Position numbers and translations under genes: made by a program | Origin: Candidatus Kaiserbacteria bacterium | GTDB taxonomy: Bacteria; Patescibacteriota; Minisyncoccia; Phycocordibacterales; UBA2100 | DNA length: 40,158 nucleotides | Assembly: GCA_028286865.1 (NCBI GenBank) | Contig: JAQBQU010000014.1 | Location: 1-40,158, forward strand | Reading direction: 5' to 3' | Part shown: positions 6,510 through 25,884 of the stretch, one piece after another | Layout: each line of letters starts with the position of its first letter | Position numbering within the stretch: the first letter of the stretch is position 1 | Notes under the pieces: model-generated | The model's input: the letters and a program-made list of their open reading frames with translations, nothing else | Told to the model about the DNA's origin: nothing | The model's database searches: none

Positions 6510-6770
6510 AGGACCATTTTTATAAATAATTGTCGGTGTTGTTGGGGGTGTGGATACTGTGGAGAAGTGAATTTAACCCAGTGTTTAAAGCATGCAAACC
6601 CGTACACTCCCCTGTTGAAAACTTCCGTGTAACCTGTGCCTGAAATGAGGATAACTCACCGGTCGCTGTTATGCCCACTGTTCTCCCCGTCTTGTTCGAG
6701 TGCCGAGCAGTCGTTGTCCCTTCTTCTGAGCAGTAGTTATACATACGTTATCCTCGGTAGTTATCCCCAA
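6510..6770. promoter_or_regulatory. dnaA-dnaN intergenic region with DnaA-box-like 9-mers (candidate oriC part)
   Basis: TGTGGATAC 6549..6557, TGAGGATAA 6646..6654 and TTATCCCCA 6761..6769 each differ from TTATCCACA (either strand) by 1; TTATCCTCG 6748..6756 differs by 2. Confidence 0.55.
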
Positions 6771-8120: not shown

Positions 8121-8395
8121 ATATTCATCAGGAGAGACACGTGGGTACAGTATACGTCGGTGCTTTGTCCTCGTAAGCTTGCGCAGGGTCTATACACATG
8201 TTCATAACCTGTGGATAACTCTTCGCTTCGCAAAACATCTCCCCTGCCGTCGCTGTCTGGCACTGGTGTGCCAGCGCTGACGCTCGGCCCGTCGGCCTGC
8301 GCGACACGGCAGGAAAGATGTTTCGACTTCGCTCCGTTAGACAAAGAAGAGCGAAAAAGCTTGAAATATAGGGAATACAAGGTATAGTGGCGCTC
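8121..8395. promoter_or_regulatory. dnaA-rpmH divergent intergenic region, candidate oriC/regulatory region
   Basis: Exact DnaA box TGTGGATAA at 8210..8218; rpmH promoter TTGAAA 8361..8366 - 16 nt - TATAGT 8383..8388; nested inverted repeats 8233..8323. Confidence 0.6.
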
Positions 8396-8536
8396 ATGAG
8401 CACGAAACGAACGTATCAACCAAAGAAGCGAAAGCGAGCGACCGCACACGGCTTCCTCGGCCGTACCCGCACCCCGGGTGGACGCAAGATGCTCCAGCGC
8501 CGACGCGCCAAGGGTCGCGCCAAGCTCGCGGTCTAA
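8396..8536 (+). CDS. rpmH: 50S ribosomal protein L34
   Basis: 46 aa ORF below the track cutoff: [46 protein letters not shown]. Confidence 0.97.
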
Positions 8537-8559
8537 TTTTCCGCTTAAAGCGGTTCCAT

Positions 8560-8877
8560 ATGCCTAAGCAAAACCGCATTTCCGGGGCTCAAATACGAGC
8601 TATTTCAGGCGCGCGCCGTATTTCGGGCGACCTCTTCTCCCTATCGTTGTCCCCGAGCAGTGCACACATCCAGTGTGCCTGCGTGGTATCTAAAAAGGTC
8701 TCTAAGCTCGCGGTGAAGCGTAACTTAATACGCCGTCGCTGCCGGGAAGCACTTCGCGCTCATATCCCCCTGCTTCGACCGGGTGTCTATATATTCCATG
8801 CAAAGCGCGAGGCTGCGCAGGCGGACTTGGCCGACATTCGCGCTGATATCGAGAAGATCGCCGCAAAGATACGCTAA
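8560..8877 (+). CDS. rnpA: Ribonuclease P protein component
   Basis: VVSKKVSKLAVKRNLIRRRCREALR RNR-type motif; located between rpmH and yidC. Confidence 0.92.
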   Translation: MPKQNRISGAQIRAISGARRISGDLFSLSLSPSSAHIQCACVVSKKVSKLAVKRNLIRRRCREALRAHIPLLRPGVYIFHAKREAAQADLADIRADIEKIAAKIR

Positions 8878-8925
8878 AGCGCCCGCATATACACCCATCG
8901 CGTTACGCGATACAATCGTCACACT

Positions 8926-9654
8926 ATGATCTCACTACTTTTCCACGCCGTTATATACAACCCGATCTACAACGCGCTCATTTTCTTCATCGACCTCTTC
9001 CCTTCGCATGATGCCGGTATTGCGGTCATTATCGTGACGATCATCGTGCGCGTGATCCTCTTTCCCCTTTCAAAGCGTGCGATCCAGGCACAGATGGCAA
9101 TGAAGAAAGTCGCTCCGGAGATCGAAGCGATCAAGGCGCGCCTCAAAGAAAAGCCGGCAGAGCAGAGCGCTGCGATATTTGCACTCTACAAAGAGCGCAA
9201 CATACGACCCTTCGCCGGACTTCTGCTCATGCTCATCCAGCTTCCGATACTTCTCGGGCTCTACTGGGCCTTCACACGCGCCGGGCTTCCCGTCATCAAC
9301 GGTGCGATCCTCTACTCATTCGTGCATGTGCCGGATGTGGTGAACATGCATTTTCTCGGACTCATCGATATGAGCAAGCGAAACATCGTACTCGCATTTC
9401 TCGCGATGATCATGCAGTTCATCTATACGCGCCTTTCTATGGGACCCCGCGGGGAAAAGACCGCAGCGGAAGCCTCGTTCTCCAATGATATGGCGAAGAG
9501 CTTTGACCTTCAGGCGCGGTACGTCTTGCCGCTCATTGTCGGCGTGATCGGAGTCACGATCGCCGCCGCCGCAACGCTCTACTGGGTGACGAGCAGCGCA
9601 TTTATGATCTGCCAGGAACTCGTGACGGGACGCCGATTCCACGGCTCAAAATAG
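8926..9654 (+). CDS. yidC: YidC/Oxa1 family membrane protein insertase
   Basis: Hydrophobic, IVTIIVRVILFPLSKRAIQAQMAMKKVAPEIEAIKARLK motif; syntenic position. Confidence 0.95.
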   Translation: MISLLFHAVIYNPIYNALIFFIDLFPSHDAGIAVIIVTIIVRVILFPLSKRAIQAQMAMKKVAPEIEAIKARLKEKPAEQSAAIFALYKERNIRPFAGLLLMLIQLPILLGLYWAFTRAGLPVINGAILYSFVHVPDVVNMHFLGLIDMSKRNIVLAFLAMIMQFIYTRLSMGPRGEKTAAEASFSNDMAKSFDLQARYVLPLIVGVIGVTIAAAATLYWVTSSAFMICQELVTGRRFHGSK

Positions 9655-9697
9655 GGGGCTTTTGAGGATACCGCCGTACGGTGGTATAGTGCCAAGC

Positions 9698-10165
9698 ATG
9701 AACGAGGGAATCGAACTCATCCTCAAGGAATTTCTCGATGCGCTCGGGTTCCCCTATAAAGGGGTTCAACGCTCAGAGGTCGCCGGCCAGACGATATTCG
9801 CGATCGAGGCCGAAGACCCGCGGCCATTTCTCGGTAGTCATGGCGATACGATCCAGGCTATCGATATGCTCGTAAAAAAGATCGCCGAGAAGCGCATCGT
9901 ACCCCAGGAGGGTGAGGCAAAAATGTTCCTCATCGACATCAACGAGCATCGAACGAAGCAGATCAAAGATATCGAAACGAAAGCGCTCATGATGGCGGAG
10001 CGCGCGCGCTCGTTTCAATACGATGTCGAGCTGACTCCGATGAGCGCATACGAGCGACTCATCGTGCACACAACGCTTCAGAATGCTCCGAACGTAAAGA
10101 CCGAATCTCTCGGAGAGGGTCGCACGCGTCGCGTTGTCATCAAATACACTGCCGACGCGATATAG
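9698..10165 (+). CDS. jag: Jag/KhpB-like RNA-binding protein (KH/R3H)
   Basis: ATG 9698 follows TATAGT by 7 nt. Contains FLGSHGDTIQAIDMLVKKI (KH) and MMAERARSFQYDVELTPMSAYERLIVHTTLQ (R3H-like); follows yidC. Confidence 0.9.
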   Translation: MNEGIELILKEFLDALGFPYKGVQRSEVAGQTIFAIEAEDPRPFLGSHGDTIQAIDMLVKKIAEKRIVPQEGEAKMFLIDINEHRTKQIKDIETKALMMAERARSFQYDVELTPMSAYERLIVHTTLQNAPNVKTESLGEGRTRRVVIKYTADAI

Positions 10166-10168
10166 TCC

Positions 10169-10681
10169 TCAGTTGATAGGATTCCCCATTTGGTCGACCG
10201 GCACACCATTTACATTCTGAGTAGCCGCAGGAATACCGCCGTATGTGCTCACCGGCGCTTGGGCTGCACTCGATGCGGGTGCCGCTTGTGACTGCTGTAC
10301 GCTGTTGAGAATATTCAAATTCAAAAGCTGCGGATTGATCTGGCCCAAAATGAGATAGATAGAAAGCAAGAGGAGGATCCCGAGCGTCACATCGCCGAGG
10401 ACCTCTTTTGCTTTCTGCTTGTTCCCCCACATATCGCTGCCCATATACAGATAGCCCGCATATGCGATGCGCATCACCGCCAAGATCGCGCCGACGGAGA
10501 GCGATATTTTGAAAAGCGTGTTCACATACTGCCCGAGATTTCCCGATTGATAGGCGGAATTCAGCATCGGCGATTGAGACGAATCGGCAAGCGGAAAGAA
10601 ACCCGGCGTCGCCGCGTGAGCGGTGCCGGCCGAGAGACCGGTCAGCACAAGTACATAGAGAAAGAGTCTGAAAAAGCGCAT
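10169..10681 (-). CDS. VirB2/TrbC-like pilin-type membrane protein
   Basis: Signal-like N-terminus, then hydrophobic LFKISLSVGAILAVMRIAYAGYLYMGSD and DVTLGILLLLSIYLIL helices; T4SS-like context. Confidence 0.65.
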   Translation of the reverse strand: MRFFRLFLYVLVLTGLSAGTAHAATPGFFPLADSSQSPMLNSAYQSGNLGQYVNTLFKISLSVGAILAVMRIAYAGYLYMGSDMWGNKQKAKEVLGDVTLGILLLLSIYLILGQINPQLLNLNILNSVQQSQAAPASSAAQAPVSTYGGIPAATQNVNGVPVDQMGNPIN

Positions 10682-10682
10682 A

Positions 10683-11924
10683 TTATTTGTCTATTTTGAG
10701 CATCCAGAGCGAACGGTCAAGGTTATTGATGAACGCGATGTATGCTCCGCCGAGGTCAATGACCGGATCCTGCACATCGAGTGCGTATTTCGGATCCGTC
10801 GCGTACAACTGCTCGGCGGTACCCGCCGTAACGTCCACTTTCCACCACGAGTCCTGCGTGTGCACTGCTCCCGCATACCAGTCTTGCAGAAAGGTGTTCG
10901 TGCCGACCGATGCGGGCACGGCGCAGTATGCGACAAGCTCCGTCCACGGCGACCAGACGCACTTATCCGCCACCGTATGTATCGGAAGTGCGACCGCATT
11001 CTCCGAAGCGCTCGCTTTAGCAAAGAGGGTGAGCGTGCCGTTGTCCGAGGTGCTGTACAAAAGTGCGGATGACCCCGATCGCGGGAGGACGGTAAGGCCC
11101 GGAAGTGTGGTCAAGAGCGGCGTGAGAGTGCCCGTGGCACCAAGCTGGAACGCGGAGCCGTTCACATTGTCGGTGGCGTTCTGCACAAGATATATTTTTC
11201 CGTCATTGAGCCATCGCGCCTGCCAGCCCACGAGCGCAGAGGAGAATATTTTCTTCTGCACCACTCCTTTCCAATCGGTCGTGATACCGCTCGCTCCCCC
11301 GCTGAGCGGGGAGATGAAGAAGAGCTGCGCGGATGAGTCACGGACGGCAACAGTGCGGATATTCTGTGCAAGATAGATACCGGTAAGAGCGACCGGTACA
11401 TTGATCTGGTCCGACGAGCTCGTCGCCATCGTTCCTAAGAACGTGGTCACCGCCCCGCCTTCGGTCACCGCGCGCAAAAGCACTTGTCCCGACTGGGTAA
11501 AGCGCGCCTCATAGATCTTTGCAAAAAGTGTATTCGTGAGACGCGTCACTTTCGTTTGTGAGGCGTCCGCTTCCAGAACATTTCCGGTGGCCCGCTCGAC
11601 GAAATTGAGGCGCGTTGTTGAAGCGATGAAGCCCATCCCTGCCACCGGAGAGGATGTCACTTGCCACAGTCGCGGCGCTTGTGTGCCGGTCGCCCCGGTC
11701 GCAACAGTGCTTGAGCTGCTCTGGAAACCTGCCGCCGTATTCTGGAAGGTGCTCCCGTTGCTCGCTCCGAACGAGCTTGTCTGCCCGAAGCCGCGGGCGG
11801 CATCGGTCGCATCGGTCGCGGCCACCTGGCGGTGTACAAAGACGTACCAGCCGATGAGCCCGCCGATAAGGGCTACGATGATGGCGGCGGCAAGATATCT
11901 GACGATGTGATTTGCAGTGTTCAT
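10683..11924 (-). CDS. Membrane-anchored protein with beta-propeller-like (TolB/WD-like) ectodomain
   Basis: Start MNTANHIVRYLAAAIIVALIGGLIGWYVFV (N-terminal TM); repeated blade-like segments such as CVWSPWTELVAYCAVP, DSWWKVDVTAGTAEQLYATD and YIAFINNLDRSLWMLKI. Confidence 0.6.
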   Translation of the reverse strand: MNTANHIVRYLAAAIIVALIGGLIGWYVFVHRQVAATDATDAARGFGQTSSFGASNGSTFQNTAAGFQSSSSTVATGATGTQAPRLWQVTSSPVAGMGFIASTTRLNFVERATGNVLEADASQTKVTRLTNTLFAKIYEARFTQSGQVLLRAVTEGGAVTTFLGTMATSSSDQINVPVALTGIYLAQNIRTVAVRDSSAQLFFISPLSGGASGITTDWKGVVQKKIFSSALVGWQARWLNDGKIYLVQNATDNVNGSAFQLGATGTLTPLLTTLPGLTVLPRSGSSALLYSTSDNGTLTLFAKASASENAVALPIHTVADKCVWSPWTELVAYCAVPASVGTNTFLQDWYAGAVHTQDSWWKVDVTAGTAEQLYATDPKYALDVQDPVIDLGGAYIAFINNLDRSLWMLKIDK

Positions 11925-11929
11925 AGTAT

Positions 11930-12958
11930 CTATTGATGGAATGGATCGGCCGCTCCCCCGCTCCCTCCCCGTGCGGCGCTGTTGGAGAAGGTGATCCCCC
12001 ACGAGCCCTGCGCATCAAGGAAATAATTGGTCGAATGAGTCAGCTCGAGCCCGATATTCGCGATGCCGGTGGATTTTTCCGCATTGATCGTGATCTCGTA
12101 CGGCTTTGCGGGATCCGGAGTGACCGAGGTGCCGTTGACGGTCCATGCGTATTCAAGACGAGGATCCGTAGCACTTACTGTCGGGCCAAAGAACGGCACG
12201 ACAGTGAACGACATTTCGGTCTCGGGAATATAGGTGGTGTTTACGAGGGCCTTATTATAGAGAATACCGAAGAGCGGCGTATCTTCATAGAGCATGAGCC
12301 GGGGTGCTGTGTCCGGGATACGGAGGATGCCATTTGCCGCGAGCGTGCCGTCGGAAGATGCCGCGGTGACCGATATTGCGCTCGTCCCATAGAGCATCGG
12401 GCCGTCGAAGACCGCGGTCGACTTCCCGCGTCCGGATGCGGAGGAAACGACAGCCCCGTCTTTTTTCCAGGTGTACGTGAGCGTCTCCGGTGGGATGGCG
12501 CTTCCGGAGCGTACGAGATGCGGGATCGCCACGACCGTGACTGAGCTGCCCGCCGAGGAAAGTGCTCGCCCCCGGTAGAAGGGCGGCGTATAGGAGTCAG
12601 ATTCCCACAAGAGGTCGATCGATGCCGGTGTGATGGTGATGGCGCGCGACGCGGTGCCGTTATCCCCCGACACCGTCACCTGCACCTGGGTCGCGCTTCC
12701 GATAGGTCCCGTCACAATGTGCGCCTCGGTCGCACCGACGCCCTGCGCGATGACCCTCCCTCCCGCGGTCCATGTGATGGTCCCGTTCCCGACATCATAG
12801 AGGGCACTTTGTACGGTCAGAGTGACGGATGCATTCGGGCCCGGATATGCCGGAGCCGTAGAAATAGAGACCGCGGAATCAGCGCCCGGTATCGAGAATT
12901 GTGCGTATGCGGGCACGGCCACGAAGAGTATCAGCGCGAAGAGTAGGGCGTTCCTCAT
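11930..12958 (-). CDS. Exported protein with Ig/PKD-like domains
   Basis: Signal peptide MRNALLFALILFVAVPAYA; beta-rich repeats with PNASVTLTVQSALYDVGNGTITWTAGG and LTYTWKKDGAVV; overlaps the VirB4 stop by 4 nt. Confidence 0.6.
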   Translation of the reverse strand: MRNALLFALILFVAVPAYAQFSIPGADSAVSISTAPAYPGPNASVTLTVQSALYDVGNGTITWTAGGRVIAQGVGATEAHIVTGPIGSATQVQVTVSGDNGTASRAITITPASIDLLWESDSYTPPFYRGRALSSAGSSVTVVAIPHLVRSGSAIPPETLTYTWKKDGAVVSSASGRGKSTAVFDGPMLYGTSAISVTAASSDGTLAANGILRIPDTAPRLMLYEDTPLFGILYNKALVNTTYIPETEMSFTVVPFFGPTVSATDPRLEYAWTVNGTSVTPDPAKPYEITINAEKSTGIANIGLELTHSTNYFLDAQGSWGITFSNSAARGGSGGAADPFHQ

Positions 12959-14880
12959 ACTTCCCGCAAGGCGCCGCTGTTAAGGGAGCTACCGACGGTA
13001 GCGGTATCGGAACCCGGCGCGTGTGCGGCCGGTGCGGCTTGCGGAGTGTACGGAGTTGGCTCGATCGACTCGAGGTCCTGTTTCGCTTTTTTGATCGCAA
13101 GTATCTGCGACGGGTCAGAAGTAATGATCTGGTCTTCGGTATATGACGCGATGATCTTGAGCGCCACGTGCTTGAGTCCCGCGAAAAATATCCCCTCCCC
13201 CACATCGGATTCGAGGAGCAGGTATTTTTCTTCATCGGAGAGCTTGAAGGTAGATTGCACCAGGTCGACCGATGTCGGCGACTGTCGCAGTAAGAGCTGG
13301 ATCGATGAGTTGGTGATCATCGGAATGCCGTACGGAGAGTTCAAGAAGTCCGAGACGTCTTGGGTGATCGTGGAGATACCGAGATAGTATTTGCGTCCGC
13401 GCTTGGCGATAGAGAAAAGGAACGATGCGGTGTCTTCGGAGCGCATCATCCACCATGCCTCGTCGATGACCAGCAGTCGCTTGCGGAGCTCTTTACGCAC
13501 CTGATTCCAGATGTGGTGCGTAATGATGTACATAGCCACCGGCTTGAGGTCGTCTTCCATGTCGCGCACGGAGAATACAACGAGCTTTTTATTCATATCG
13601 ACGTTCGTCGGACGATTCATAAAGCCCGACCATGTCCCCTTCGTGTATTTGCTCAAACGCTGTACGAGAGACTCCGATCCTTCCATACCCGAGAGCACGA
13701 GCTCAAAGTCGGAAAGAAGCGGGGGCTCCACCGCGGCAAAATTCGCATCGGCGGTGATGTCTTTGAGCGCGTATGTCTCGGTGATCGCCTTGTCGATGAT
13801 CGCATCCTCTTCCGGAGTGAGGCCGCCTAACATAATGCGAAAGAGTCCGACGAGCGTGATGATGTTGTTGCGCAAAATATCTGCGGGCGCCTCATCTTCG
13901 CGCGGTACTGCAAGATCGAACGGATTGATGTGGTGCTCTGACGAGAGCGAAATATTAAAATAGCGGCCGCCGACGGTCTCCGCGAGGTACTCGTATTCGC
14001 GTTCAGGGTCGATAACGATCACTTCCGTATCGAACATAAGGCTTCGCAATATCTCGAGCTTGGTCGTATAGGATTTTCCGGCGCCGGATTTCGCGAAGGT
14101 CACGGAGTTGTAGTTCTCGAGCGAGAAGCGGTCGAAGAGAATGAGAGATGAATTATGGCGATTGATGCCGTAGAGAATACCGCGATCCGATGTGAGGTCG
14201 AATGAAATGAACGGAAATATCGAGGAAAGCGGCGCTGAATTGAGCTTGGTGTGCACGTTGAGCTCATCGGTCGCGAGTGGCAATACCGAGCGGAAGCCCT
14301 GTTCCTGCTGGAAGAGCGCCGGGCGGATATACACCAGACGCGATTCAAGTATCGAGCGAACTTCGCTTTCGGTCTTATCTATTTCTTCGCGGGTATTGCC
14401 GTAGATCGTGAGGTAGAGGCCGACATCGAAGATGCGCTCCTGTGCCTGCTGGAGGCTGTCGCGGAGTTGTTCGAGGTCGGAATACGCGGTGTCGAGCATC
14501 GGATCGCGCACGATCCCCTTCTGTTCGCGTGTCGCGATCTGGCTTTGTACCTCGGCGACCTTCTTCTGGAATTTGCGGAGCATCTCATTGGTATCCATCG
14601 GGTGGATGAATACGGAAATATCGATCACTTTGTCCATGTTGATGATCGGCGCGAACCATCCGGTCGTAAGAAAGCGCGGATACGAGATCACGAAGAAGGT
14701 GCGCGCGATCTTTTCACCCAGATCGAGCTCGCGGGAATTGACCTTGAGCGCGTGGGGCGCTATCACATCCTGCAGATTCAATACCCCTGTCTGATAGATC
14801 TCGTCCGGCAAGACCGGCAGGATATCCGCCATTGCTGTTTTGTTCTTGTTGCCGAACGGCAGTAGATCTGAAAATGCCAT
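12955..14880 (-). CDS. VirB4-family T4SS ATPase
   Basis: Walker A VTFAKSGAGKSYTTKLEILRSL (~14068..14100), Walker B KRLLVIDEAWWMM (~13443..13490), VIVIDPEREYEYLAE, ISTITQDVSDFL. Confidence 0.92.
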   Translation of the reverse strand: MAFSDLLPFGNKNKTAMADILPVLPDEIYQTGVLNLQDVIAPHALKVNSRELDLGEKIARTFFVISYPRFLTTGWFAPIINMDKVIDISVFIHPMDTNEMLRKFQKKVAEVQSQIATREQKGIVRDPMLDTAYSDLEQLRDSLQQAQERIFDVGLYLTIYGNTREEIDKTESEVRSILESRLVYIRPALFQQEQGFRSVLPLATDELNVHTKLNSAPLSSIFPFISFDLTSDRGILYGINRHNSSLILFDRFSLENYNSVTFAKSGAGKSYTTKLEILRSLMFDTEVIVIDPEREYEYLAETVGGRYFNISLSSEHHINPFDLAVPREDEAPADILRNNIITLVGLFRIMLGGLTPEEDAIIDKAITETYALKDITADANFAAVEPPLLSDFELVLSGMEGSESLVQRLSKYTKGTWSGFMNRPTNVDMNKKLVVFSVRDMEDDLKPVAMYIITHHIWNQVRKELRKRLLVIDEAWWMMRSEDTASFLFSIAKRGRKYYLGISTITQDVSDFLNSPYGIPMITNSSIQLLLRQSPTSVDLVQSTFKLSDEEKYLLLESDVGEGIFFAGLKHVALKIIASYTEDQIITSDPSQILAIKKAKQDLESIEPTPYTPQAAPAAHAPGSDTATVGSSLNSGALREV

Positions 14881-14881
14881 A

Positions 14882-15541
14882 TTATTGTGCGCCGGGGACC
14901 GGCATCGGTTTGCCGTCCTCGCCCGGGTTGAACATCTTGTAGAGCAATTCTATCGCCTCTTCGGTGCCGAGTTGTACGGTTCTTACACCGGTGCGGATAA
15001 GTCCCTGCTGCACGATCCCGATACGCTGCTCAAGCTGGGAGACCTGTTCCTCGAACGACTTATTCTCCTCCTCGGAAGACTGCTTCTTCCCGAACGGGAG
15101 CATGCTGGTGAGCCCGCTACCCTTTTTCGAGATAGTGGGTGCGTACGGCACGACAACGAAGAAGTTCTTGGTCATGATATTCGCCGCCTCGGTGAAGCTC
15201 TTCACGAACTCGATGTATTCACGTATCTGGATGCGCATCAGGTCGTCGAGCTGTTCTTTGTATGCGGCTTCGAGCGTTGCTACGTACGGACGGATGTCGA
15301 GCATGCGCGATTGCACGAAGATCTGTACCGAAAAATCGAGTGAGTTGAGGAAATTCTGGAACTGGACGATGAACGCGGTCTGTTCGTCTTCGGATTTCAA
15401 TGCGAAGTTGATCGACGATGCGAGGAGTATCGCGCGCAGTCCCCCGTCTTTGAGCATGACGACACCGTCGCGCACCTCAGAGATCGGCACGAAATCCTGT
15501 GTCGATTTAGAATTGGTGCGCGGTGATGTATCGGTCGGCAT
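14882..15541 (-). CDS. TraC-like / VirB4 N-terminal-domain-like protein
   Basis: Start MPTDTSPRTNSKSTQDFVPI at 15541; KDGGLRAILLASSINFALKSEDEQTAFIVQFQNFLNSLDFSVQIFVQSR resembles TraC/VirB4 N-terminal regions; 1-nt junction with the VirB4 ATPase gene. Confidence 0.75.
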   Translation of the reverse strand: MPTDTSPRTNSKSTQDFVPISEVRDGVVMLKDGGLRAILLASSINFALKSEDEQTAFIVQFQNFLNSLDFSVQIFVQSRMLDIRPYVATLEAAYKEQLDDLMRIQIREYIEFVKSFTEAANIMTKNFFVVVPYAPTISKKGSGLTSMLPFGKKQSSEEENKSFEEQVSQLEQRIGIVQQGLIRTGVRTVQLGTEEAIELLYKMFNPGEDGKPMPVPGAQ

Positions 15542-15542
15542 A

Positions 15543-16055
15543 TTATTGAATTGTACGCTCTCGAATGGACGATAGAACATCTTGTGCGGTGCGCATCGGG
15601 GCTACGTTGCCGCGCTGCGTGTCCTCGCGCTCTTCTTCGGCGGCGGTGCCGGCCGCGACGCGCTCCTTGATGTCGAGGCTCCACGCGAGCTCATGAAGAC
15701 GGCTGTCGGTGAGCTTCGGAATATAGACTTCAGCCGTTTTTGTCACCGCCTCCTGACGAACGACAGCCTTTTTCTTGGTCACATTGTTCCAGAGATAGAG
15801 CTTCGGATGCAAAAAGTAGTAAAAACCGTTCTCCAGAGCCAAAATAAAGGGCCTGCCGTTGACCTGGAAGAACGCGAGCGCAGCAGCGAGCGCGATGACA
15901 CCGACGATCAGCGGGATCGCTAGGAAAAAAGGCAAGAGTCGCCACAAAACATAGGTCATACCGAGGCCGCCTGCCATGAATACGAACTGTTTGAACGTGA
16001 ACGGACCGATGATCTTGTCCTCCACTTCAATAAATTGAGGAACCTGGAACTGCAT
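15543..16055 (-). CDS. PrgI family protein (VirB3-like position)
   Basis: MQFQVPQFIEVEDKIIGPFTFKQFVFMAGGLGMTYVLWRLLPFFLAIPLIVGVIALAAALAFFQVNGRPF, typical PrgI layout upstream of VirB4. Confidence 0.85.
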   Translation of the reverse strand: MQFQVPQFIEVEDKIIGPFTFKQFVFMAGGLGMTYVLWRLLPFFLAIPLIVGVIALAAALAFFQVNGRPFILALENGFYYFLHPKLYLWNNVTKKKAVVRQEAVTKTAEVYIPKLTDSRLHELAWSLDIKERVAAGTAAEEEREDTQRGNVAPMRTAQDVLSSIRERTIQ

Positions 16056-16114
16056 ACATATATAGTATAGCAGTCCGCGCATGCGCGCCGACGAAAAAAC
16101 GAATGAAGTGGGGG

Positions 16115-16714
16115 CTATTTCAGTTGTTCGCGATACGGATCGCCTTCTATCGTCTTTCGCTCGTGGCTTGGAGTGGCGGGTACGTATGTCGGAGAGATCG
16201 GTGCACGCTCAACGGTCGCCGTCGGAGCGGGGGCAGGCGGAGTCCCGGGAACTATTGAAGGAGCGGATGTTACGCTCGGAGTGATTGGAGTGGTCGTCGC
16301 TGTCGGGACCGGCTGATTCTCAGCTTTTGCGAGTTCCTGCCTCTGCATGTCCTCTACCCCGGTCGTCTTCACTGCCACGGCATCCGGATGATCAAGCTCG
16401 CGTTCCAGTTCTTTACGCACCGGGTCGAAAACAACGCGTGAAATGTCAGTCGCAAGGGCTTCTGCTGCCGTCTGGTCTATTCCAACTGTTTTTTCAATAT
16501 TTTTTACCAGATCCCCGCCCGAATGAATACCCAGAAGCGTAAGCTGCACTTCGTTTTCGAGAGATTCCCACTGATCCAGGTGGAGCTTATGCGCATCGGC
16601 AAGTTCCCGCATTTGTTTCGCAACATCAGCAGATGTGATCGCACGTTGTACGACTTTAGGCAGGCTCAGGAACCGTTGCTTTATCGCTTCTTTGAATTCG
16701 TTGGTTTCATCCAT
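16115..16714 (-). CDS. Hypothetical protein in T4SS-like operon with Pro/Thr-rich C-terminus
   Basis: 199 aa ORF, 8 nt downstream of the VirB6-like gene stop; helical N-terminus and low-complexity PTATTTPITPSVTSAPSIVPGTPPAPAPTATVERAPISPTYVPATP tail. Confidence 0.7.
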   Translation of the reverse strand: MDETNEFKEAIKQRFLSLPKVVQRAITSADVAKQMRELADAHKLHLDQWESLENEVQLTLLGIHSGGDLVKNIEKTVGIDQTAAEALATDISRVVFDPVRKELERELDHPDAVAVKTTGVEDMQRQELAKAENQPVPTATTTPITPSVTSAPSIVPGTPPAPAPTATVERAPISPTYVPATPSHERKTIEGDPYREQLK

Positions 16715-16722
16715 ATATTTTT

Positions 16723-19179
16723 TTAATGAGCGGCGGGACCATGATTATCGGCTGCAGGGGGGTGATCAGCTGCGGCTGCGGGCGCAGCTGCATGATTGTC
16801 TGCCTGCGCGGGCTCGGCTGCAGGAGCAGGGGCAGGGGTTGTTCCCCCGGCCTCTTGGATCGCTTCAGCGAAATCCTTAAACTTCTTTTTCTTATCCTGA
16901 TGCCCGACCTCGTGATCCGCGAGGTGCGCAAGATGTTCATTTTCTCTTTCCGTGTAAAAGACACTCGTGAACCTATTTCGAGCCAGATCTCCTGCAAGTG
17001 CACTCGCCGTGCGAGTGTTCTCATTGATGGTTCCTCTCGCTTTAGCCAGCACTTTTCCAAAGTCCTCAATTCTTTCGACTTCGCCTCGCGTGCCCGTAAC
17101 CGCCGCACTTGCTTCCTTGATCTTTGCTGTCTGCTCCGAGATCGCTTGCGCATGTCGATTTCTCGCATTGATTATATTTTGTTGTGCTGTGTCCGCATCA
17201 GCTTGTGTGCCGGTTCCCGTATCAGCCGCGTGCCGAGCTCGTTCGAGCTCCGTATGAAGAGCCTTCATTTCTTGAGCGTGATTGTCCTGAGTGGTTGCGA
17301 GACTGTTTTTAGCCGCCTGCTCCTCATTCTTGGCGCCTTCGTGTATCTCTGTCGCGCGGTTGTGTTGCGTGCTCAGGTCAACATTCTTTCGGATCTCCTC
17401 AGCAATTGCCTTACCGTCTGCTGCTTCTTTCTCGTGCTTGTCCGGTGTGATCCTTCTTGCCTGCTCTGCGATCGCGTGAGCCTTCTTTTCTTGCTCACCG
17501 AGGAATCCTCCCAGCTTACTGCCGGCAAGCGCATCAACCTTTAGGCCGGTGCCGGCGGCAACGGCATTACCAAGCGGAGAGCGCATCGCATTGAAATCGC
17601 TCTTCGCAACGCCCTTAAATCGTTGTGAGCCGAAATCGAATAATTGTCTTGAGAAGTCTGAACGCTTGCCGTCCTTCGAGGCCTCGGCCATGCGGTTACT
17701 TATAGCCATTGCAGGTCGGCCAAGAAGCTGCCTGCCACCAAACGCTGCTACGCGAGCGCCCATCGCGAGACCGAGTCCTGGTATCATTGCGGCGAAGTTG
17801 AATCCGCCGATGCCGCTTGAGAATTTGCTCGAAAGTTTAAAGGATGCAAAGAGAAGGCCGAGGATGATCACAAAGTTGAGCAGCGCCGTAATGTTTCCTG
17901 AGGCAGTCGGGTTCTGGGCAAGCCCGCCGATCGTGCCGGCATGTCCTATGGTGGCGCTGATCCCGGCGGACACCGTAAGCGTCACCCACAACATCATCAT
18001 CAGTATCGGGGCCAAGATCGCATTTTTCAGCAGTGCGCTCCACCACTTGCTCCAGCCATAGTTATCGGAAAGTTTGGGGATCAAATATGTAGCGAAAGCG
18101 AGAGAGGATGTAACGAGGAGGACAATAAATAGGATCGCTCGAGCTAAAAGAATGAATGAACCGTAAAGGAAAACAAGCGCTGTGGCGATGAGGAATACGA
18201 ATGAGAGCACGCCGATCACGAGCCCGGTCGACGCATCATCATTGGCCTCCTGGGCCGCACGAACCGCATTATATGAATCGGCAAATCCGGTCACACCAAG
18301 ATACTGGATGAACGTGCCGGCGATACCGGGGGCGGTTAGCTGCGTAGTACTGTTAGCCCCGCTCCCCGCCAATATGTCTTTGTCGGACTTAACCCCTGCT
18401 GATTTATCCGCGTTTGAGATCGAGGCACTGTAGAACTGGAAGGCGGTGAAGTTCGATCCGTCTATAACGAGCTTCGTGAAGAGAAGGCTGAAGTTGATCA
18501 GAACGGCGACGATAAGGACGCGGGAAAGTAATTTTTTTGCGCCATATTCAGTGATCCCAAGAATTGTCGAGATCGCAATAAATGTGAAGAATCCGATGAT
18601 GAGAATATTCGAGATGTCCCGGAAAACGGTCCATGCGTTATTTACGGCCGTCGCTATGCTCGCATACATCGGCGTTTGAAAGCTCACGACCGTGTAGTTG
18701 AGGACACTTTCAAAAAGAAGACCGCTCGCCGTCAGGCATTCGACCCCGATGAAGATCAGGAAAGACGCAATGCCGGCGAAAAGCGCACGAGTGATACAAA
18801 CTCCGGGGTTGAGAATCGATGTGAGTATGCCGGAGCAGGAAGTCGGGCTCTTATCTGTTCGTTTGCCTGCTGCGTCATATGATTGTGTACCGGCAACGTT
18901 ATCGACCGTTGTCCCTGTCCCGTCGGCATTATTTATAATATTGCCATTCTGATCGAGATTTGTTCTTTGTGTTTGCCCGTCAGCATCCACGGTACATGTA
19001 TATGTGCCGTCTGCATTCGATGTCAGTTGCGATCGGATGCCGAGCGCGGTGCTCCCCTGACTATCACAATAGCTCTGTGCAGTTGCTGCCATAGTTTGAT
19101 GCGGCAGGAACATAATTGATACACAGAACAAGGCCGCCATCCCCACGTTCCATACTCTTTTTTTAAACTCACGCCGCAT
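16723..19179 (-). CDS. VirB6/TrbL-like polytopic membrane protein with long coiled-coil C-terminal extension
   Basis: Signal peptide, multiple hydrophobic segments, then ~350 aa charged Ala-rich region ending in AAAPAAAADHPPAADNHGPAAH. Confidence 0.75.
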   Translation of the reverse strand: MRREFKKRVWNVGMAALFCVSIMFLPHQTMAATAQSYCDSQGSTALGIRSQLTSNADGTYTCTVDADGQTQRTNLDQNGNIINNADGTGTTVDNVAGTQSYDAAGKRTDKSPTSCSGILTSILNPGVCITRALFAGIASFLIFIGVECLTASGLLFESVLNYTVVSFQTPMYASIATAVNNAWTVFRDISNILIIGFFTFIAISTILGITEYGAKKLLSRVLIVAVLINFSLLFTKLVIDGSNFTAFQFYSASISNADKSAGVKSDKDILAGSGANSTTQLTAPGIAGTFIQYLGVTGFADSYNAVRAAQEANDDASTGLVIGVLSFVFLIATALVFLYGSFILLARAILFIVLLVTSSLAFATYLIPKLSDNYGWSKWWSALLKNAILAPILMMMLWVTLTVSAGISATIGHAGTIGGLAQNPTASGNITALLNFVIILGLLFASFKLSSKFSSGIGGFNFAAMIPGLGLAMGARVAAFGGRQLLGRPAMAISNRMAEASKDGKRSDFSRQLFDFGSQRFKGVAKSDFNAMRSPLGNAVAAGTGLKVDALAGSKLGGFLGEQEKKAHAIAEQARRITPDKHEKEAADGKAIAEEIRKNVDLSTQHNRATEIHEGAKNEEQAAKNSLATTQDNHAQEMKALHTELERARHAADTGTGTQADADTAQQNIINARNRHAQAISEQTAKIKEASAAVTGTRGEVERIEDFGKVLAKARGTINENTRTASALAGDLARNRFTSVFYTERENEHLAHLADHEVGHQDKKKKFKDFAEAIQEAGGTTPAPAPAAEPAQADNHAAAPAAAADHPPAADNHGPAAH

Positions 19180-19180
19180 A

Positions 19181-20884
19181 TTATTTCTTCCACTTCTGGA
19201 TCCACGCCTGGATCGTGGTTTGGTTGCTCACATTGCACCAGCCGACCGCCGGATAGGTCGTACCGTCCCATGCCGCATTCGCGGTGCCGTCGCTCCCCGC
19301 TCCTGTCCAGTTGGCAACCGTGTCGCTCAAAAGCTGCGTCATGGATCCCGTGATCGTGGTCTTCGACTGCTCTGCCGCCTGCTGATCGTATTGCGTGTGC
19401 AGCTTGTGCTGAGAGACGAGCGTATCGAGCTGCTGGAGTGCGATGCGTTGCGCATCGAGCGAGGTTGTATTGGTCACTCCGGTGAGCAGCTGATTGATGA
19501 GGGTAAGCGCAGTATTGGAGCTATTGATATTGGCCACGGTCGCGTTCGCGAGCGGCGTGATCTGTCCGTCGACGATCGCTTGAGAAAAGACGGTGGAGGT
19601 GGCGATCTTGAGGGTGATCGCCGAAGGGCAGGTCCGCACTCCCTCGGCGTCGGTGGTGCACCCTTGTGCGACAGCGGTGCAGGTGTTGTCGGATTTCAGT
19701 GTTCCCGATGTGCACACATTTTGGATGATCGCGTTCCAGCAGATATTTTCTTTGCTGCGAAGCGAATTGATCGTGTTGGTGAGTACGGTGCCGATCGCCT
19801 GCATTGCGGCGAGGTAGCCCTGCTCGATCGTGCGGTTGGCGCCGAGTATCGTGATGGCGGCATTGAGAGCGCTGTTGCGGATACCGGCGGCGGATTCGCT
19901 CGCGACCTGATCGAGATACGATGCCTGCGAGCCGGTCCGCTGAGTGAGTCCGATGAGTCCCCTGTTGTCTCCGGTCACCTGCGAAGTGATGCCCGCAAAA
20001 AGCGCGCCCACCATCTGATCGATGTCGTTGGCATTCTCGAGCTGGCGGAAGCCGGTCTGGAGCGCCTGCTGAATGTTGGAACTCACGATCGCTCCCGGTG
20101 TCACGGTGATGATGTTGCCGTTCTCATCCACGGTCTGTACCGGATATGTGCCGTTGCCCCACCCGACCTGTGTCATCTGGTCGTTCCACCCCGAAGCAGC
20201 ATCGCCCATCACAACGCCATTTGCCCGAATTGCGGCGAAATACGGCAAGCAGTTCGGATTCATCAAGGATGCGAGGCCCGCCCAACTGAATGATTGCGTC
20301 GGATTGGTCTCGAGCGCCTTGAGGTCTCCGGTATACGGGCACGCGAGCGACTGCGCGCGGGCGTTGATGCTCGCGGAGTATCCCTGTGCAATGGCTCGCT
20401 GTATGGATGCTTTGAAAGCCGGGTTCACGGCGCTGAGCGTACTGCCCTGCAAGCTGTTCACCACGGATTTCGTCCAGAACGCGGTGCTCTCCTGAGGAAT
20501 ACTTTGTAAAAACTGCGCCTGGCCGTTGCGTCCTGAGGTATAGACCACGGTCATCTGCTTGGTGAGCGCCGATGTCACGCCTTCGCGCTGACGATCGACG
20601 ATGCCGCGCAATACACACTCCTTATACACAAGATATCCCGTGTTGAGGGTCACCGCCGCGTCGTTGACCGGCACGTACGCGCCGCCGGTGGCGGAGAGAG
20701 AGCCGACGCTCATCGAATACGCTCCGTTGAGGTTGCAGCCGAAGACGCCGTCTTTTTGGAACGCATACGTGCTCGAATAATCAGCGGTCGCAGTGACCGT
20801 GTTCGTCGTATCGGTCTGTGCGGATGCAAGAAAAGGCAGGGCGAGTATCGCCGCGGCCGACAGTATTATGCGCGAATATCTCAT
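19181..20884 (-). CDS. Exported hypothetical protein of T4SS-like cluster
   Basis: 567 aa; MRYSRIILSAAAILALPFLASAQ signal peptide; operonic (TAATATG junction with the VirB6-like gene, 4-nt overlap upstream). Confidence 0.75.
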   Translation of the reverse strand: MRYSRIILSAAAILALPFLASAQTDTTNTVTATADYSSTYAFQKDGVFGCNLNGAYSMSVGSLSATGGAYVPVNDAAVTLNTGYLVYKECVLRGIVDRQREGVTSALTKQMTVVYTSGRNGQAQFLQSIPQESTAFWTKSVVNSLQGSTLSAVNPAFKASIQRAIAQGYSASINARAQSLACPYTGDLKALETNPTQSFSWAGLASLMNPNCLPYFAAIRANGVVMGDAASGWNDQMTQVGWGNGTYPVQTVDENGNIITVTPGAIVSSNIQQALQTGFRQLENANDIDQMVGALFAGITSQVTGDNRGLIGLTQRTGSQASYLDQVASESAAGIRNSALNAAITILGANRTIEQGYLAAMQAIGTVLTNTINSLRSKENICWNAIIQNVCTSGTLKSDNTCTAVAQGCTTDAEGVRTCPSAITLKIATSTVFSQAIVDGQITPLANATVANINSSNTALTLINQLLTGVTNTTSLDAQRIALQQLDTLVSQHKLHTQYDQQAAEQSKTTITGSMTQLLSDTVANWTGAGSDGTANAAWDGTTYPAVGWCNVSNQTTIQAWIQKWKK

Positions 20885-21711
20885 GGTGTTTTTTGGGAGT
20901 AGTACGAGCCGAGCGCGTTGAATGAATTGTACATGTCCGCTTCTGCCTTATTATACGTGCGCAAAAGCGCAGCGCTCGCGAGCGCATCTTCACCGTGGAC
21001 CGACATCGCTTCGATAGTCGCAGAGAATTCGCTCATCGCATTGAGCACACTCAGGTGATAGTTGACCGCATCGCGCGGGACCACCACGTGTGCGGTGAGT
21101 GCGATCGCCTCATCGTAATTGACCGCAGCTGCGCGCAGCTGGGTGAGGTACGTGGGATCGCTCGTCTCTTCGTATTTTGCAAAAAGGTCGAGCTCGGAGA
21201 GAGTGTTCTTCAAAAGAGGCGCAAATGCGGTGCGCAGATCCGCGCGATACGTGAGCATGCGCTGGTATGAGGTGTCGGTGTCGGTCTTGAGGTCGGCGAG
21301 GGCGTACGTCTTATACGATACGACGGCGCGCATATTGGCGGCTACATTTCCGGCCGCGAGCGCGGCGGTACTCGAGGAGTATGTTCCCTGATCCTGAAGT
21401 CCCGCGTACTGGCCCACGAGCTGGGCAGTTACCATCGGCCCGATCATAGCGATCGGATCAGTGTTCGAAGTGTTCGATGCGTCGACCCCGACGACCGTGC
21501 TCTGCCCCAAAAGAAGTTTTTCCTGTTGTTGCGTCGCGGCGTCTCCTGCGGAGACATCCGTATCACTCGATGCCACCTCCGCTACCGCGACCGAAGGTTC
21601 GGGTTGCATGGATCCGGTAATGCGCCACGCGGAAACGCTCAGGAGTGCAATCACAGAGAGCATGGCAGCTACTGACATGGGAGTGAGAGTGATGTGTTGC
21701 AATACGCGCAC
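20881..21711 (-). CDS. Membrane-anchored hypothetical protein of T4SS-like cluster
   Basis: 276 aa; N-terminal TM (MSVAAMLSVIALLSVSAWRI), then helical region; 4-nt overlap with the next gene. Confidence 0.7.
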   Translation of the reverse strand: MRVLQHITLTPMSVAAMLSVIALLSVSAWRITGSMQPEPSVAVAEVASSDTDVSAGDAATQQQEKLLLGQSTVVGVDASNTSNTDPIAMIGPMVTAQLVGQYAGLQDQGTYSSSTAALAAGNVAANMRAVVSYKTYALADLKTDTDTSYQRMLTYRADLRTAFAPLLKNTLSELDLFAKYEETSDPTYLTQLRAAAVNYDEAIALTAHVVVPRDAVNYHLSVLNAMSEFSATIEAMSVHGEDALASAALLRTYNKAEADMYNSFNALGSYYSQKTP

Positions 21712-21764
21712 ACTAGAAGTATATCACCGCACGCAGCGTGAATGGCTCAGTTGCTCCCCTTTTT

Positions 21765-22724
21765 TCAGATACCGCCGCCTCCCGAGAATGTAAATACGCT
21801 TCCCGGATCTCCCGGAGCGAACACAACGCCCGAGAGCGAAAGATATTGCGCGAGCGCGACGTATTTCTTGGTGAATGTCTCGACGGAAGTGTCATATGCC
21901 TTGATCGCCGCGATGAACGTGTCATCGCCGGGAGCGTCGGGGACGGCGCTGAGCTTCTCGCCGATGTCGATATAGCCGGCAGCGAGCGCCTGATTGAGGG
22001 TTTTGGCCGCATCGGGCACCCCGTCCATGGTCTGAAGTGATACACCGACCGCTTTGAGCGCATCGCCGATATCCTTTACGGCCCGTCCTTTTTGGGTATT
22101 TTGGCGGTCGACTGCCTGATCTTTTAAGATAGAAGATGTATTTTGGCGACCGCTTTCGTATGTTTGTATATACCCTCCCGCGTTGTTGCCGTATTCATAC
22201 AGTGCCTGTTGCGCCGCGCTGCGCGTTCGGCCAGGTGAAGTCGTACTGATAAGCCCCTGAGGGATGAACTGATATGAGGCATGTATCGAAGTATCTGCTG
22301 TTGTGGTACCTGAAACCGAAGCATTTGGCTGAGTTCCGACACCCATCGAAGTAGCCCATGCCTGCACGTCGAATGAATCACCAGTATTTTGGCTCACTGC
22401 GACGGTATGTACCGGGATCGGAGTGAGAGAAATGGCAGTGTTGCCGCCGGAGCCTCCGGAGGAAAGATTCGTCAGTACCGGGTTTTGTTCCCCGTACGAA
22501 GATGAGTTGACCAGTGTACCGTCACCGCCGCCCCATACCTGCAGCGTATTGGTAGCGGATGCCGGCACGTGGCTCTTCACGACAATGGCGCCAAGCACGA
22601 GAAGTATTCCCGCGCCCACGCACGCGCTCGTGTATATATGAGTACTGAGCCATTCCGCCGCCCCCATTCCCTGCGGCGCCGCTGTTCGGGGAGTGTACCC
22701 GCTCTTATCGATGAAGGGCTCCAT
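21765..22724 (-). CDS. Membrane-anchored hypothetical protein, first gene of T4SS-like cluster
   Basis: Likely start MEPFIDKSGYTPRTAAPQG at 22724 with TM ACVGAGILLVLGAIVV; TATACT -10 lies 7 nt upstream. The ORF-track extension to 23087 overlaps the divergent gene and is unlikely. Confidence 0.7.
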   Translation of the reverse strand: MEPFIDKSGYTPRTAAPQGMGAAEWLSTHIYTSACVGAGILLVLGAIVVKSHVPASATNTLQVWGGGDGTLVNSSSYGEQNPVLTNLSSGGSGGNTAISLTPIPVHTVAVSQNTGDSFDVQAWATSMGVGTQPNASVSGTTTADTSIHASYQFIPQGLISTTSPGRTRSAAQQALYEYGNNAGGYIQTYESGRQNTSSILKDQAVDRQNTQKGRAVKDIGDALKAVGVSLQTMDGVPDAAKTLNQALAAGYIDIGEKLSAVPDAPGDDTFIAAIKAYDTSVETFTKKYVALAQYLSLSGVVFAPGDPGSVFTFSGGGGI

Positions 22725-23215: not shown

Positions 23216-23983
23216 CTAGTACAATTTCTCCGTAAGAAGCTTCCACTCCCCGATCTTAATATCCTCCGCCCGCGCTTTCTCAGGTATCCCGCACTCGCTC
23301 ATCGCAGCGATCACCTTTTCTTTCTCGAACACGACCGCAAGATTGTTCGCGACGAACTTTCGCTTTGATGCGAATCCGGCGCGAACGACCGTGAAGAATT
23401 GCTCTTCGGTGATAGTGTCAAAAAAAGTTCCCGAAATATCGGTAATAGCGAGTATCGCAGAATCTACCGACGGTGGCGGCGAGAAATGCGTCTTCGAGAC
23501 CTTGGCGATGATCTTGGGCACGCCGAAGGCCTTCACTGAGAGCGACAAAATACTTTCCTTTACTCCCGTGATGCGCTGCGCGACCTCTTTTTGAATAAGC
23601 AGTGCCATTGCCCGCGGCTTATCTTTTGCGGTGAGGAACTGACGGATGATCTCGCCGGTGATGTAATACGGAATATTTGCGGCAACAATGTATCGAGAGA
23701 TGCCGAGTGATGCGGGCGTCACGTTGCGGATATCGTCTGAAACGATCGTGAGCTTTCCGCTCGATATCTCCGCGGCGAATGTCTCATTGAGAAGTGTCAC
23801 GAGTGCCTCGTCTTTTTCGATCGCGATCACGGGGCCCAAAGTAAGAAGTTCTCGTGTGAGTACGCCTTTGCCGGGGCCCACTTCCACGATCACTTCCCCT
23901 TCCAGCGGTTCTACCGCATGCGCGAGCGTACGCGCTGCCCACGAATGTATGAGGAAATGCTGACCGAGTCGTGCGCCCTTCAT
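23216..23983 (-). CDS. rsmA: 16S rRNA (adenine1518/1519-N6)-dimethyltransferase
   Basis: KGARLGQHFLIHSWAARTLAH; VEVGPGKGVLTRELL; IVAANIPYYITGEIIRQFL; KTHFSPPPSVDSAIL. Confidence 0.95.
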   Translation of the reverse strand: MKGARLGQHFLIHSWAARTLAHAVEPLEGEVIVEVGPGKGVLTRELLTLGPVIAIEKDEALVTLLNETFAAEISSGKLTIVSDDIRNVTPASLGISRYIVAANIPYYITGEIIRQFLTAKDKPRAMALLIQKEVAQRITGVKESILSLSVKAFGVPKIIAKVSKTHFSPPPSVDSAILAITDISGTFFDTITEEQFFTVVRAGFASKRKFVANNLAVVFEKEKVIAAMSECGIPEKARAEDIKIGEWKLLTEKLY

Positions 23984-25884
23984 ATAATGTATGTCTCATC
24001 GTCGTCGAGCAGTGATCGCTTGCGAACCGAGGGAGCAATGGTGTTCATAAGACGCGCATCGATATCTTCGAGGAATTCCGATGGCAGCGTGTATTCGCGG
24101 GAGCCGTATTTCATACGCTCCGCAGCATAGCTGAGATACAGTCGTTTGCGCGCGCGCGTGAGGGCGACATAAAAGAGCCGGCGGTCCTCTTCGGGGTCGC
24201 GTTTCTCGTCTTCACGCGTCGACGGAAAAAGCCCCTGTTCAAGCCCTGTAATGAATACCGCGTCGAATTCAAGGCCTTTTGAAGCATGCACCGTCATGAG
24301 CGATACCGCGCTCACTTCGTCTTTGATCTGGTCCTGGTCGCTCTGGAGCGCAGCCTCTTCGAGCAGTTTTTCCATTCCCTCCGGACACGTGTCCGAATCG
24401 AATTTGGTCGCGAGGTTCACGAGTTCGCGGATGTTGCCGAGGCGCTCCTCGCCGTCGTCCGCATTTTTGTACATGTTCTCGATGCCGCTTGCCTCGACCG
24501 CGTAGCGTACCGCTTCGGATGCGGGCAGTGTATTGATCGCATGCTTGATGCGCACTAAGATGTCGCGAAAGTTGGCGACCTTGGCGCGCGCGGCGGCCGG
24601 GAGCGCGGCATCATCTCCGGCGAGTACTTTATCGAGCGTCACTTTGCCTATCCCGCGCGGCGGCACGGATATGATGCGTCCGATATCGATCTTATTCTTG
24701 TCGTTCATTGCGGCGCGCAGGTACGAGAGCGTGTCTTTTACCTCCTTGCGTTCAAAGAATCGCGTGCCGAGCACACGGTACGGGACATTGTGATGGAGCA
24801 GTGCCTCTTCGAGTGCGCGTGATTGGAAGTTCTCGCGATATAAGACCGCGATATTCGAGGGCGAGGTGCCGGTCTCCACAAGTTTCAGTGCCGATTGCGC
24901 CACGAACCACGCCTCATCGATCTCGTTGCGCGCACCGTAGAGCGTGATCGCTTCGCCCACGATATTCTCAGTGAAGAGTCGCTTCGGGCGGCGGCGAACG
25001 TTCTTCTCGATGACCGAATTCGCCGCAGTCAAAATGGTCGAAGTCGAGCGATAGTTCTGCTCGAGAAGCACCACCTGTGCTCCGGGGAAATTATCTTCGA
25101 ATCCGAGCAGGTGTTCGATGTCGGCACCGCGCCAGCTGTAGATGTTCTGGTCGGTGTCACCCACGACGCATATATTGCACGTCGCACCCGCGAGGATGCG
25201 CGCGATCTCGTACTGCGAGCGGTTGGTATCCTGATATTCGTCGATCGTGATGTACTTCCAGCGATTCTGCAGTAGTGAGCGCGTGTGTTCCGACGAGCGG
25301 AGCATGTGCAGCGTTCTGTATAAAAGGTCATCGAAGTCGAGCGCCTCCTCTTCTTTGAGAAGCTTCTCGTAGATCTCCCATGCCTGGGCTACGGCCCGCT
25401 CGCGGAAGGTCCGCGCCTTTGCCTGATACTCCGATACCGAGGTCCCGTCCCCTTTTTCACGCGAGATGCCGCTGAGGATCGCCCGCGGCGTCCAGTTCTC
25501 GATGCCGAGCTTCTCGAGTGCCTGCTTCACCGCGCGCACGCTGTCGTCGCGGTCCCAAATACTGAATCCGCGCGGCAGCCCCGCTTCTGCGTGGAACTCC
25601 CGGAGCAATCGCACGCCGAGCGCATGGAAGGTCGACACGATCGGCATGCCCGAGGTCTCCGGGACGAGCTTCCGTACCCGTTCGCGCATCTCTCCGGCCG
25701 CCTTATTGGTAAAAGTAACCGCCAGTATCTGCCGCGCCGGTATCCCTTTGTCGATCAAATGGGCGATGCGATGGGTGATGGTCTTGGTCTTTCCGGCTCC
25801 GGCACCCGCCACGATCAAAAGCGGTCCTTCGGTATGTAACACTGCCTGTTTTTGTTGTATATTGAGTCCTTCGAGGTGGTCCAT
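23980..25884 (-). CDS. UvrD/PcrA-family superfamily I DNA helicase
   Basis: LLIVAGAGAGKTKTITHRIAHLI; ITIDEYQDTNRSQYEIARIL; VGDTDQNIYSWRGADIEHLL; LMTVHASKGLEFDAVFITGLEQGLFPS; VALTRARKRLYLSYA. Confidence 0.96.
   Translation of the reverse strand: MDHLEGLNIQQKQAVLHTEGPLLIVAGAGAGKTKTITHRIAHLIDKGIPARQILAVTFTNKAAGEMRERVRKLVPETSGMPIVSTFHALGVRLLREFHAEAGLPRGFSIWDRDDSVRAVKQALEKLGIENWTPRAILSGISREKGDGTSVSEYQAKARTFRERAVAQAWEIYEKLLKEEEALDFDDLLYRTLHMLRSSEHTRSLLQNRWKYITIDEYQDTNRSQYEIARILAGATCNICVVGDTDQNIYSWRGADIEHLLGFEDNFPGAQVVLLEQNYRSTSTILTAANSVIEKNVRRRPKRLFTENIVGEAITLYGARNEIDEAWFVAQSALKLVETGTSPSNIAVLYRENFQSRALEEALLHHNVPYRVLGTRFFERKEVKDTLSYLRAAMNDKNKIDIGRIISVPPRGIGKVTLDKVLAGDDAALPAAARAKVANFRDILVRIKHAINTLPASEAVRYAVEASGIENMYKNADDGEERLGNIRELVNLATKFDSDTCPEGMEKLLEEAALQSDQDQIKDEVSAVSLMTVHASKGLEFDAVFITGLEQGLFPSTREDEKRDPEEDRRLFYVALTRARKRLYLSYAAERMKYGSREYTLPSEFLEDIDARLMNTIAPSVRKRSLLDDDETYII

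Follow-up and report, generated by a model that had tools for sequence, protein, structure and literature searches.

Conjugation systems of mating-pair formation type FATA (MPF-FATA), such as CTn2/CD1110, pGO1 Trs, and pCF10 Prg, possess a relaxase and a coupling protein and lack VirB2 pilins, and we know of no propeller or immunoglobulin (Ig) module in them. Here we describe an 11-gene island encoding a type IV secretion system (T4SS) in a Candidatus Kaiserbacteria bacterium, located on a stretch of 40,158 nucleotides (contig JAQBQU010000014.1 of assembly GCA_028286865.1; hereafter the window). The island shares the VirB4 family NF045971, TrsD, and PrgI with these conjugation systems. The genome that holds the window (its contig C19) amounts to 0.87 Mb in 21 contigs and is 90% complete. 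Candidatus Kaiserbacteria are nearest among its named relatives, and the close relatives comprised only Patescibacteria and uncultured bacteria.

The closest described systems come from the Patescibacteria themselves. In 2025, Quinonero-Coronel et al. (PMC12102498) reported a T4SS of MPF-FATA type without a relaxase that is situated, in Paceibacteria, close to dnaA, dnaN, and ksgA. Their system has VirB4, TrsD, PrgI/VirB3, VirB6, and a VirB2-like pilin, no relaxase, and VirB1-like proteins nearby, some of them with M23/LysM domains; the island shares this composition and the chromosomal site, its VirB6 and VirB1 counterparts being candidates. Southlakia epibionticum ML1 requires its T4SS cluster, SEML1_0006-0019, for epibiotic growth, as transposon sequencing (Tn-seq) revealed (PMC10633639). 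That cluster likewise resembles Gram-positive systems in composition and includes pilins, lacks a recognisable coupling protein or relaxase, and has low locus-tag numbers, but it contains a series of pilin genes, and the word propeller does not occur in the main text of that report. A 2025 review treats the Patescibacteria T4SS as a known newcomer (PMC12857230), and the role of the T4SS in these bacteria has been termed completely unknown (PMC11665869). The apparatus noticed by the first-pass annotation is real, but since PMC12102498, PMC10633639, and PMC12857230 cover the machine, and PMC12102498 places it at dnaA for the phylum, the machine is already known as a headline finding. What looks new relative to the published main texts is that a membrane-anchored propeller protein accompanies the pilin across much of the phylum. 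We consider, with a probability of about 70%, that the island encodes a vertically inherited, non-conjugative Patescibacteria T4SS of MPF-FATA type, with a split TrsD/VirB4 ATPase, a VirB2-like pilus, and exocellular accessory parts, which serves contact and export rather than DNA import.

Core machine encoded by the gene island

The island is a block of 11 packed minus-strand genes (10169-22724), and the survey of open reading frames (ORFs) recovered all of the co-directional genes first noted there, with intergenic gaps of -38 to +53 bp. Starts were corrected to an ATG at 11924 for the propeller gene, probably 15541 for TrsD, probably 16055 for PrgI, and 22724 for gene 11. The genes are as follows.

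10169-10681, minus: gene 1, VirB2-like pilin with a signal peptide and two transmembrane (TM) helices (PF18895 in the family, alignment)
10683-11924, minus: gene 2, TM-anchored beta-propeller (AlphaFold2, Foldseek, PD40 in relatives, alignment)
11930-12958, minus: gene 3, secreted protein with three Ig-like domains (AlphaFold2, Foldseek, weak PKD/Ig matches in relatives)
12955-14880, minus: gene 4, VirB4 ATPase without the N-terminal part (NF045971, PF19044, structure 4ag5)
14882-15541, minus: gene 5, TrsD, the detached VirB4 N-terminal domain (NF041427, NF045975)
15543-16055, minus: gene 6, PrgI/VirB3 (PF12666)
16115-16714, minus: gene 7, soluble, probably cytoplasmic protein with a Pro-rich tail (no TM segment, alignment, synteny)
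16723-19179, minus: gene 8, extended VirB6-like polytopic protein with a C-terminal soluble region (topology, position, TrbL/VirB6 matches of relatives)
19181-20884, minus: gene 9, secreted Cys-rich orphan (N-terminal hydrophobic segment, family scan, synteny)
20881-21711, minus: gene 10, orphan of the gene 11 family anchored by a single TM segment (shared profile, synteny)
21765-22724, minus: gene 11, single-TM anchored paralogue of gene 10 (shared profile)

The T4SS assignment is borne out by hidden Markov models at their curated cut-offs. VirB4 scored 368 bits against NCBIfam NF045971 (CD1110-type conjugation ATPase; cut-off 325, E 8e-110), also exceeded the cut-off of PF19044, and matched the solved VirB4 structure 4ag5 (E 7e-41), while PrgI scored 36.6 against PF12666 (cut-off 27, E 7e-9). 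Gene 5, initially called TraC-like, is indeed part of the core ATPase but is TrsD, the split-off VirB4 N-terminus: it matches NF041427 (TrsD) at E 5e-7, below the curated cut-off, and positions 86-238 of NF045975 (VirB4) at E 3e-10. TrsD adjoins VirB4 in 75 of 76 loci of the order and in 38 of 40 distant loci. The VirB4, PrgI, and TrsD families together support the Gram-positive-type core. The window pilin alone falls below the cut-off of PF18895 (T4SS_pilin, E 0.1), and 21 of 24 members of its family match at E <= 0.01, in agreement with the proposed VirB2/TrbC-like pilin. The VirB6-like protein has about 7 hydrophobic segments and no match of its own; its topology and position, together with weak TrbL/VirB6 matches in 2 of 34 relatives, agree with a putative VirB6-like identity.

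Four strong T2SSE matches in the genome, two of them neighbours on contig C16, look like pilus-type ATPases and lie outside the cluster, and a VirB11 identity for them was rejected on both grounds. In loci L188, L189, and L190 (genomes G157, G045, and G048), VirB4 carries long in-frame insertions at the Walker A motif (GKS); the interrupted frames reach 989, 1267, and 1281 aa, and the insertions end in VHN before a Ser, as is typical of inteins.

Vertical inheritance beside dnaA

VirB4 was detected in 89 of the 98 genomes sampled from the order and in 135 of the 145 from the phylum, two samples drawn separately, so that no patchy distribution was observed. Synteny was counted in the 80 nearest named loci, which are the best matches rather than a random draw, with contigs that were long enough as denominators. 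The gene order is fixed as ksgA, gene 11/gene 10, gene 9, VirB6, gene 7, PrgI, TrsD, VirB4, Ig, propeller/pilin, jag, yidC, and dnaA, the last being found at the locus in 50/50 contigs. The propeller and pilin (57/57), Ig protein (63/63), VirB6 (58/58), gene 9 (54/54), the gene 10/gene 11 family (53/53), and gene 7 (61/63) are all retained, every operon gene being kept in 97-100% of the contigs, and the accessory genes remain at the locus more than expected by chance. Pairwise VirB4 distances track those of DnaA with r 0.93, comparable to the housekeeping gene yidC (0.90). VirB4 retains about 90% identity among Kaiserbacteria-like genomes, against about 40-55% for the exported proteins. The suggestion that the apparatus is inherited vertically at a fixed position relative to dnaA is therefore upheld by its distribution, synteny, and congruence with DnaA. 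The accompanying placement beside oriC holds in part: the island adjoins dnaA-dnaN (5409-8120), but DnaA boxes show no clustering in the window and an oriC placed by such clustering is not supported, so its position is beside dnaA only. Scanning the region upstream of gene 11 for promoters and terminators gave nothing informative.

An ordinary integrative conjugative element (ICE) would also explain core genes of the conjugative MPF-FATA type, and the genome does encode one VirD4-like protein above the cut-offs of PF10412, PF02534, and PF12696. The gene is on contig C8, outside the cluster, and its product has no evident N-terminal TM segment in the sequence; the statement that no VirD4 is seen thus applies to the cluster and not to the genome. 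No relaxase of PF03432 or PF13814, the two families searched among the mobilization (MOB) families, was found in the 90%-complete genome, as first noted for the island. We rejected the ICE as extremely improbable on the absence of these two families and on the near-universal, syntenic, dnaA-linked distribution that is congruent with DnaA distances; the first-pass annotation had likewise leaned away from a conjugative element.

Association of the propeller with the pilin

The AlphaFold2 model of gene 2, built from an alignment of relatives, joins a TM helix through a disordered linker to a beta-propeller, with a predicted local distance difference test (pLDDT) score of 87, and two Cys residues of the propeller, C322 and C334, are invariant in the alignment. 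The model of gene 3, built likewise, has three Ig-like domains (pLDDT 90). Both folds had been proposed from the sequence and are borne out by these models. PD40 is present in four relatives of the propeller. More specific propeller relatives were sought and rejected, as Foldseek returned generic beta-propellers only and the TolB profile matched weakly (E 0.02-0.08), so the function is not readable from the fold.

Profile hits were counted only when they reached the propeller body, because many phylum-wide hits cover the N-terminal TM segment alone. Propeller-body matches outside the order occur in 36 sampled genomes by a hand tally from two tables. In 26 of them the match is within 20 kb of virB4, in 8 it is on a different contig, and in 2 it shares the contig with virB4 but at a great distance. 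Among the ten apart from virB4, G120 did not hold up against the refined profile, and the G193 locus is truncated where its contig stops. Each of the 8 readable cases has a pilin gene adjoining the propeller gene (G224, 519 kb from virB4; G152, 93 kb; G237, G225, G136, G195, G210, and G099), 6 of these pilins being confirmed by Pfam T4SS_pilin. L152 and L157 contain tandem repeats of the pilin-propeller pair. Several of the pilins at these propeller loci carry additional SLT, M15 or C39 peptidase, GDSL lipase, or GH18 domains, and pilin fusions elsewhere also involve Amidase_2 and NlpC/P60. The main text of PMC12102498 mentions neither a propeller nor an immunoglobulin, and we did not meet pilin-hydrolase fusions in it.

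The best reading of these results is that the propeller is a pilin-associated component of the apparatus. A stronger proposal seems to us evenly balanced: that the membrane-anchored propeller is a dedicated partner of the VirB2-like pilin in Patescibacteria, that the pair duplicates and relocates as a module, and that with pilins fused in some lineages to wall-cutting enzymes it would form the base or tip of a pilus that has no parallel among known T4SSs. Alternatively, the propeller, Ig, and orphan genes could be mere neighbours in a conserved chromosome region rather than parts of the machine. Since the whole dnaA region is syntenic, linkage within the order is weak evidence against this; nevertheless, the packing is operon-like, in distant lineages the propeller is tied to VirB4 or, where VirB4 is far off, to the pilin, and fusions join the Ig gene to a membrane gene and in one case to the pilin, which together make such bystanders quite unlikely.

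Wall-hydrolase and other enzyme fusions to pilins were located in L191-L197, L201, and members of alignment A8. The order of the pair also swaps, 29 Kaiserbacteria-like loci including the window having propeller-pilin and 32 others pilin-propeller.

Ig-like and orphan proteins

After removal of housekeeping distances, the propeller and the Ig protein showed the highest distance correlation between components (0.60), above that of VirB4 and TrsD (0.45), an expected physical pair. Foldseek matches of the Ig protein are generic Ig/Fn3 tandems, its relatives show weak PKD/Ig matches, and AxAQ is conserved where the signal peptide likely ends. In most non-Kaiserbacteria loci, a conserved small polytopic membrane protein is encoded between VirB4 and Ig (for example, L075:11806-12483); it also occurs in L051, L061, L063, and L066, and the window is without this gene. 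The Ig gene is fused to an upstream gene for a small polytopic membrane protein in L073, L078, L091, and L100, and a single 794-aa frame in L084 (11827-14208) joins membrane protein, Ig domains, and pilin; assembly errors are possible in all five.

Gene 7 has no TM segment and a conserved C-terminal DPYREP motif. The N-terminus of gene 9 resembles a signal peptide, with a hydrophobic segment, and members of its family add Fn3, bacterial surface Ig, or F5/F8 type C domains in one to two relatives each, which suggests that gene 9 is exposed at the cell surface. Genes 10 and 11 share a profile and form one family, with two copies in 25 of 80 loci. No convincing known family was found for gene 9 or for genes 10 and 11.

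Candidate wall hydrolase and neighbouring genes

The first-pass annotation had seen no VirB1-type gene and had overlooked a candidate, a gene for a LysM-M23 peptidase situated 3.6 kb outside the cluster. The features outside the operon are as follows.

26283-27386, plus: LysM and M23 peptidase (Pfam), candidate VirB1-type wall hydrolase
5409-10165: conserved neighbours dnaN and dnaA (minus), yidC and jag (plus) (gene calls, synteny)
23216-25884, minus: conserved neighbours ksgA and uvrD (gene calls, synteny)

The island is thus flanked by ksgA-uvrD on one side and jag-yidC-dnaA-dnaN on the other. In 56 genomes of the order, the best LysM-M23 match is on the virB4 contig; all 56 matches lie within 35 kb of virB4, and 53 within 20 kb, all of these upstream and divergent. 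VirB1-type proteins are described as associated with virB4 in Paceibacteria in PMC12102498. Since housekeeping genes sit between this gene and the operon, linkage alone does not prove its role, and we regard it as a candidate. A 174-aa ORF without a Pfam match (27498-28022, plus) adjoins it.

Proposed function

TrsD and VirB4 would act as one split ATPase on a membrane base of PrgI and VirB6, driving assembly of the VirB2-like pilus and moving macromolecules through the envelope at host-cell contact. Genes 2, 3, 9, 10, and 11 would form the exocellular part, which is built from different proteins in other T4SSs. The pilin is the most likely partner of the TM-anchored propeller, which could be a scaffold, a gate, or a factor of the pilus base. 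The secreted Ig protein may work with the propeller, gene 9 may be a surface or adhesin-like part, and the wall is probably opened by the neighbouring LysM-M23 peptidase.

Attachment, DNA uptake, and protein export had all been considered at first. The authors of PMC12102498 suggest that the T4SS imports host DNA or other macromolecules, in a Ced-like or Com-like manner; a Helicobacter precedent is cited in PMC11665869, and the lack of the two relaxase families is compatible with such a role. However, the genome encodes its own ComEC and four type IV pilus (T4P)-type ATPases, VirB4 is nearest to the exporting conjugation family NF045971, and wall-hydrolase domains on the pilins of some relatives fit an outward-acting device. 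Because of ComEC and these wall-active fusions, we prefer export or attachment, and uptake, the least favoured of the three options, appears unlikely, though credible. Contact with protein export is accordingly the reading we favour, although complex formation, transport direction, substrates, and host contact are what we infer rather than compute.

Several points weigh against the export and contact machine with a propeller-pilin module. No VirB8 or VirB5 homologue was recognised, VirB8 having no Pfam or NCBIfam match among the ten proteins scanned; VirB8 is also rare in the published Patescibacteria T4SS set. Among the distant loci with a propeller by VirB4, several (such as L150, L153, L161, and L162) have no recognisable adjoining pilin, and the residual distance correlation of propeller and pilin is -0.18, from a short pilin alignment. 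The Ig protein is nearly restricted to the order and its neighbours, and since it was found in only 8 of 145 phylum genomes, it cannot be a universal part of the machine. Finally, the basis for the machine in this lineage is computational, as are the family assignments, folds, synteny, vertical inheritance, and propeller-pilin linkage.

The T4SS is one of the few macromolecular machines retained by nearly all of these reduced genomes, and it has proved essential where this was examined. The list of exocellular parts and an expressible propeller-pilin pair offer concrete starting points for studying how episymbionts make contact with their hosts and exploit them.

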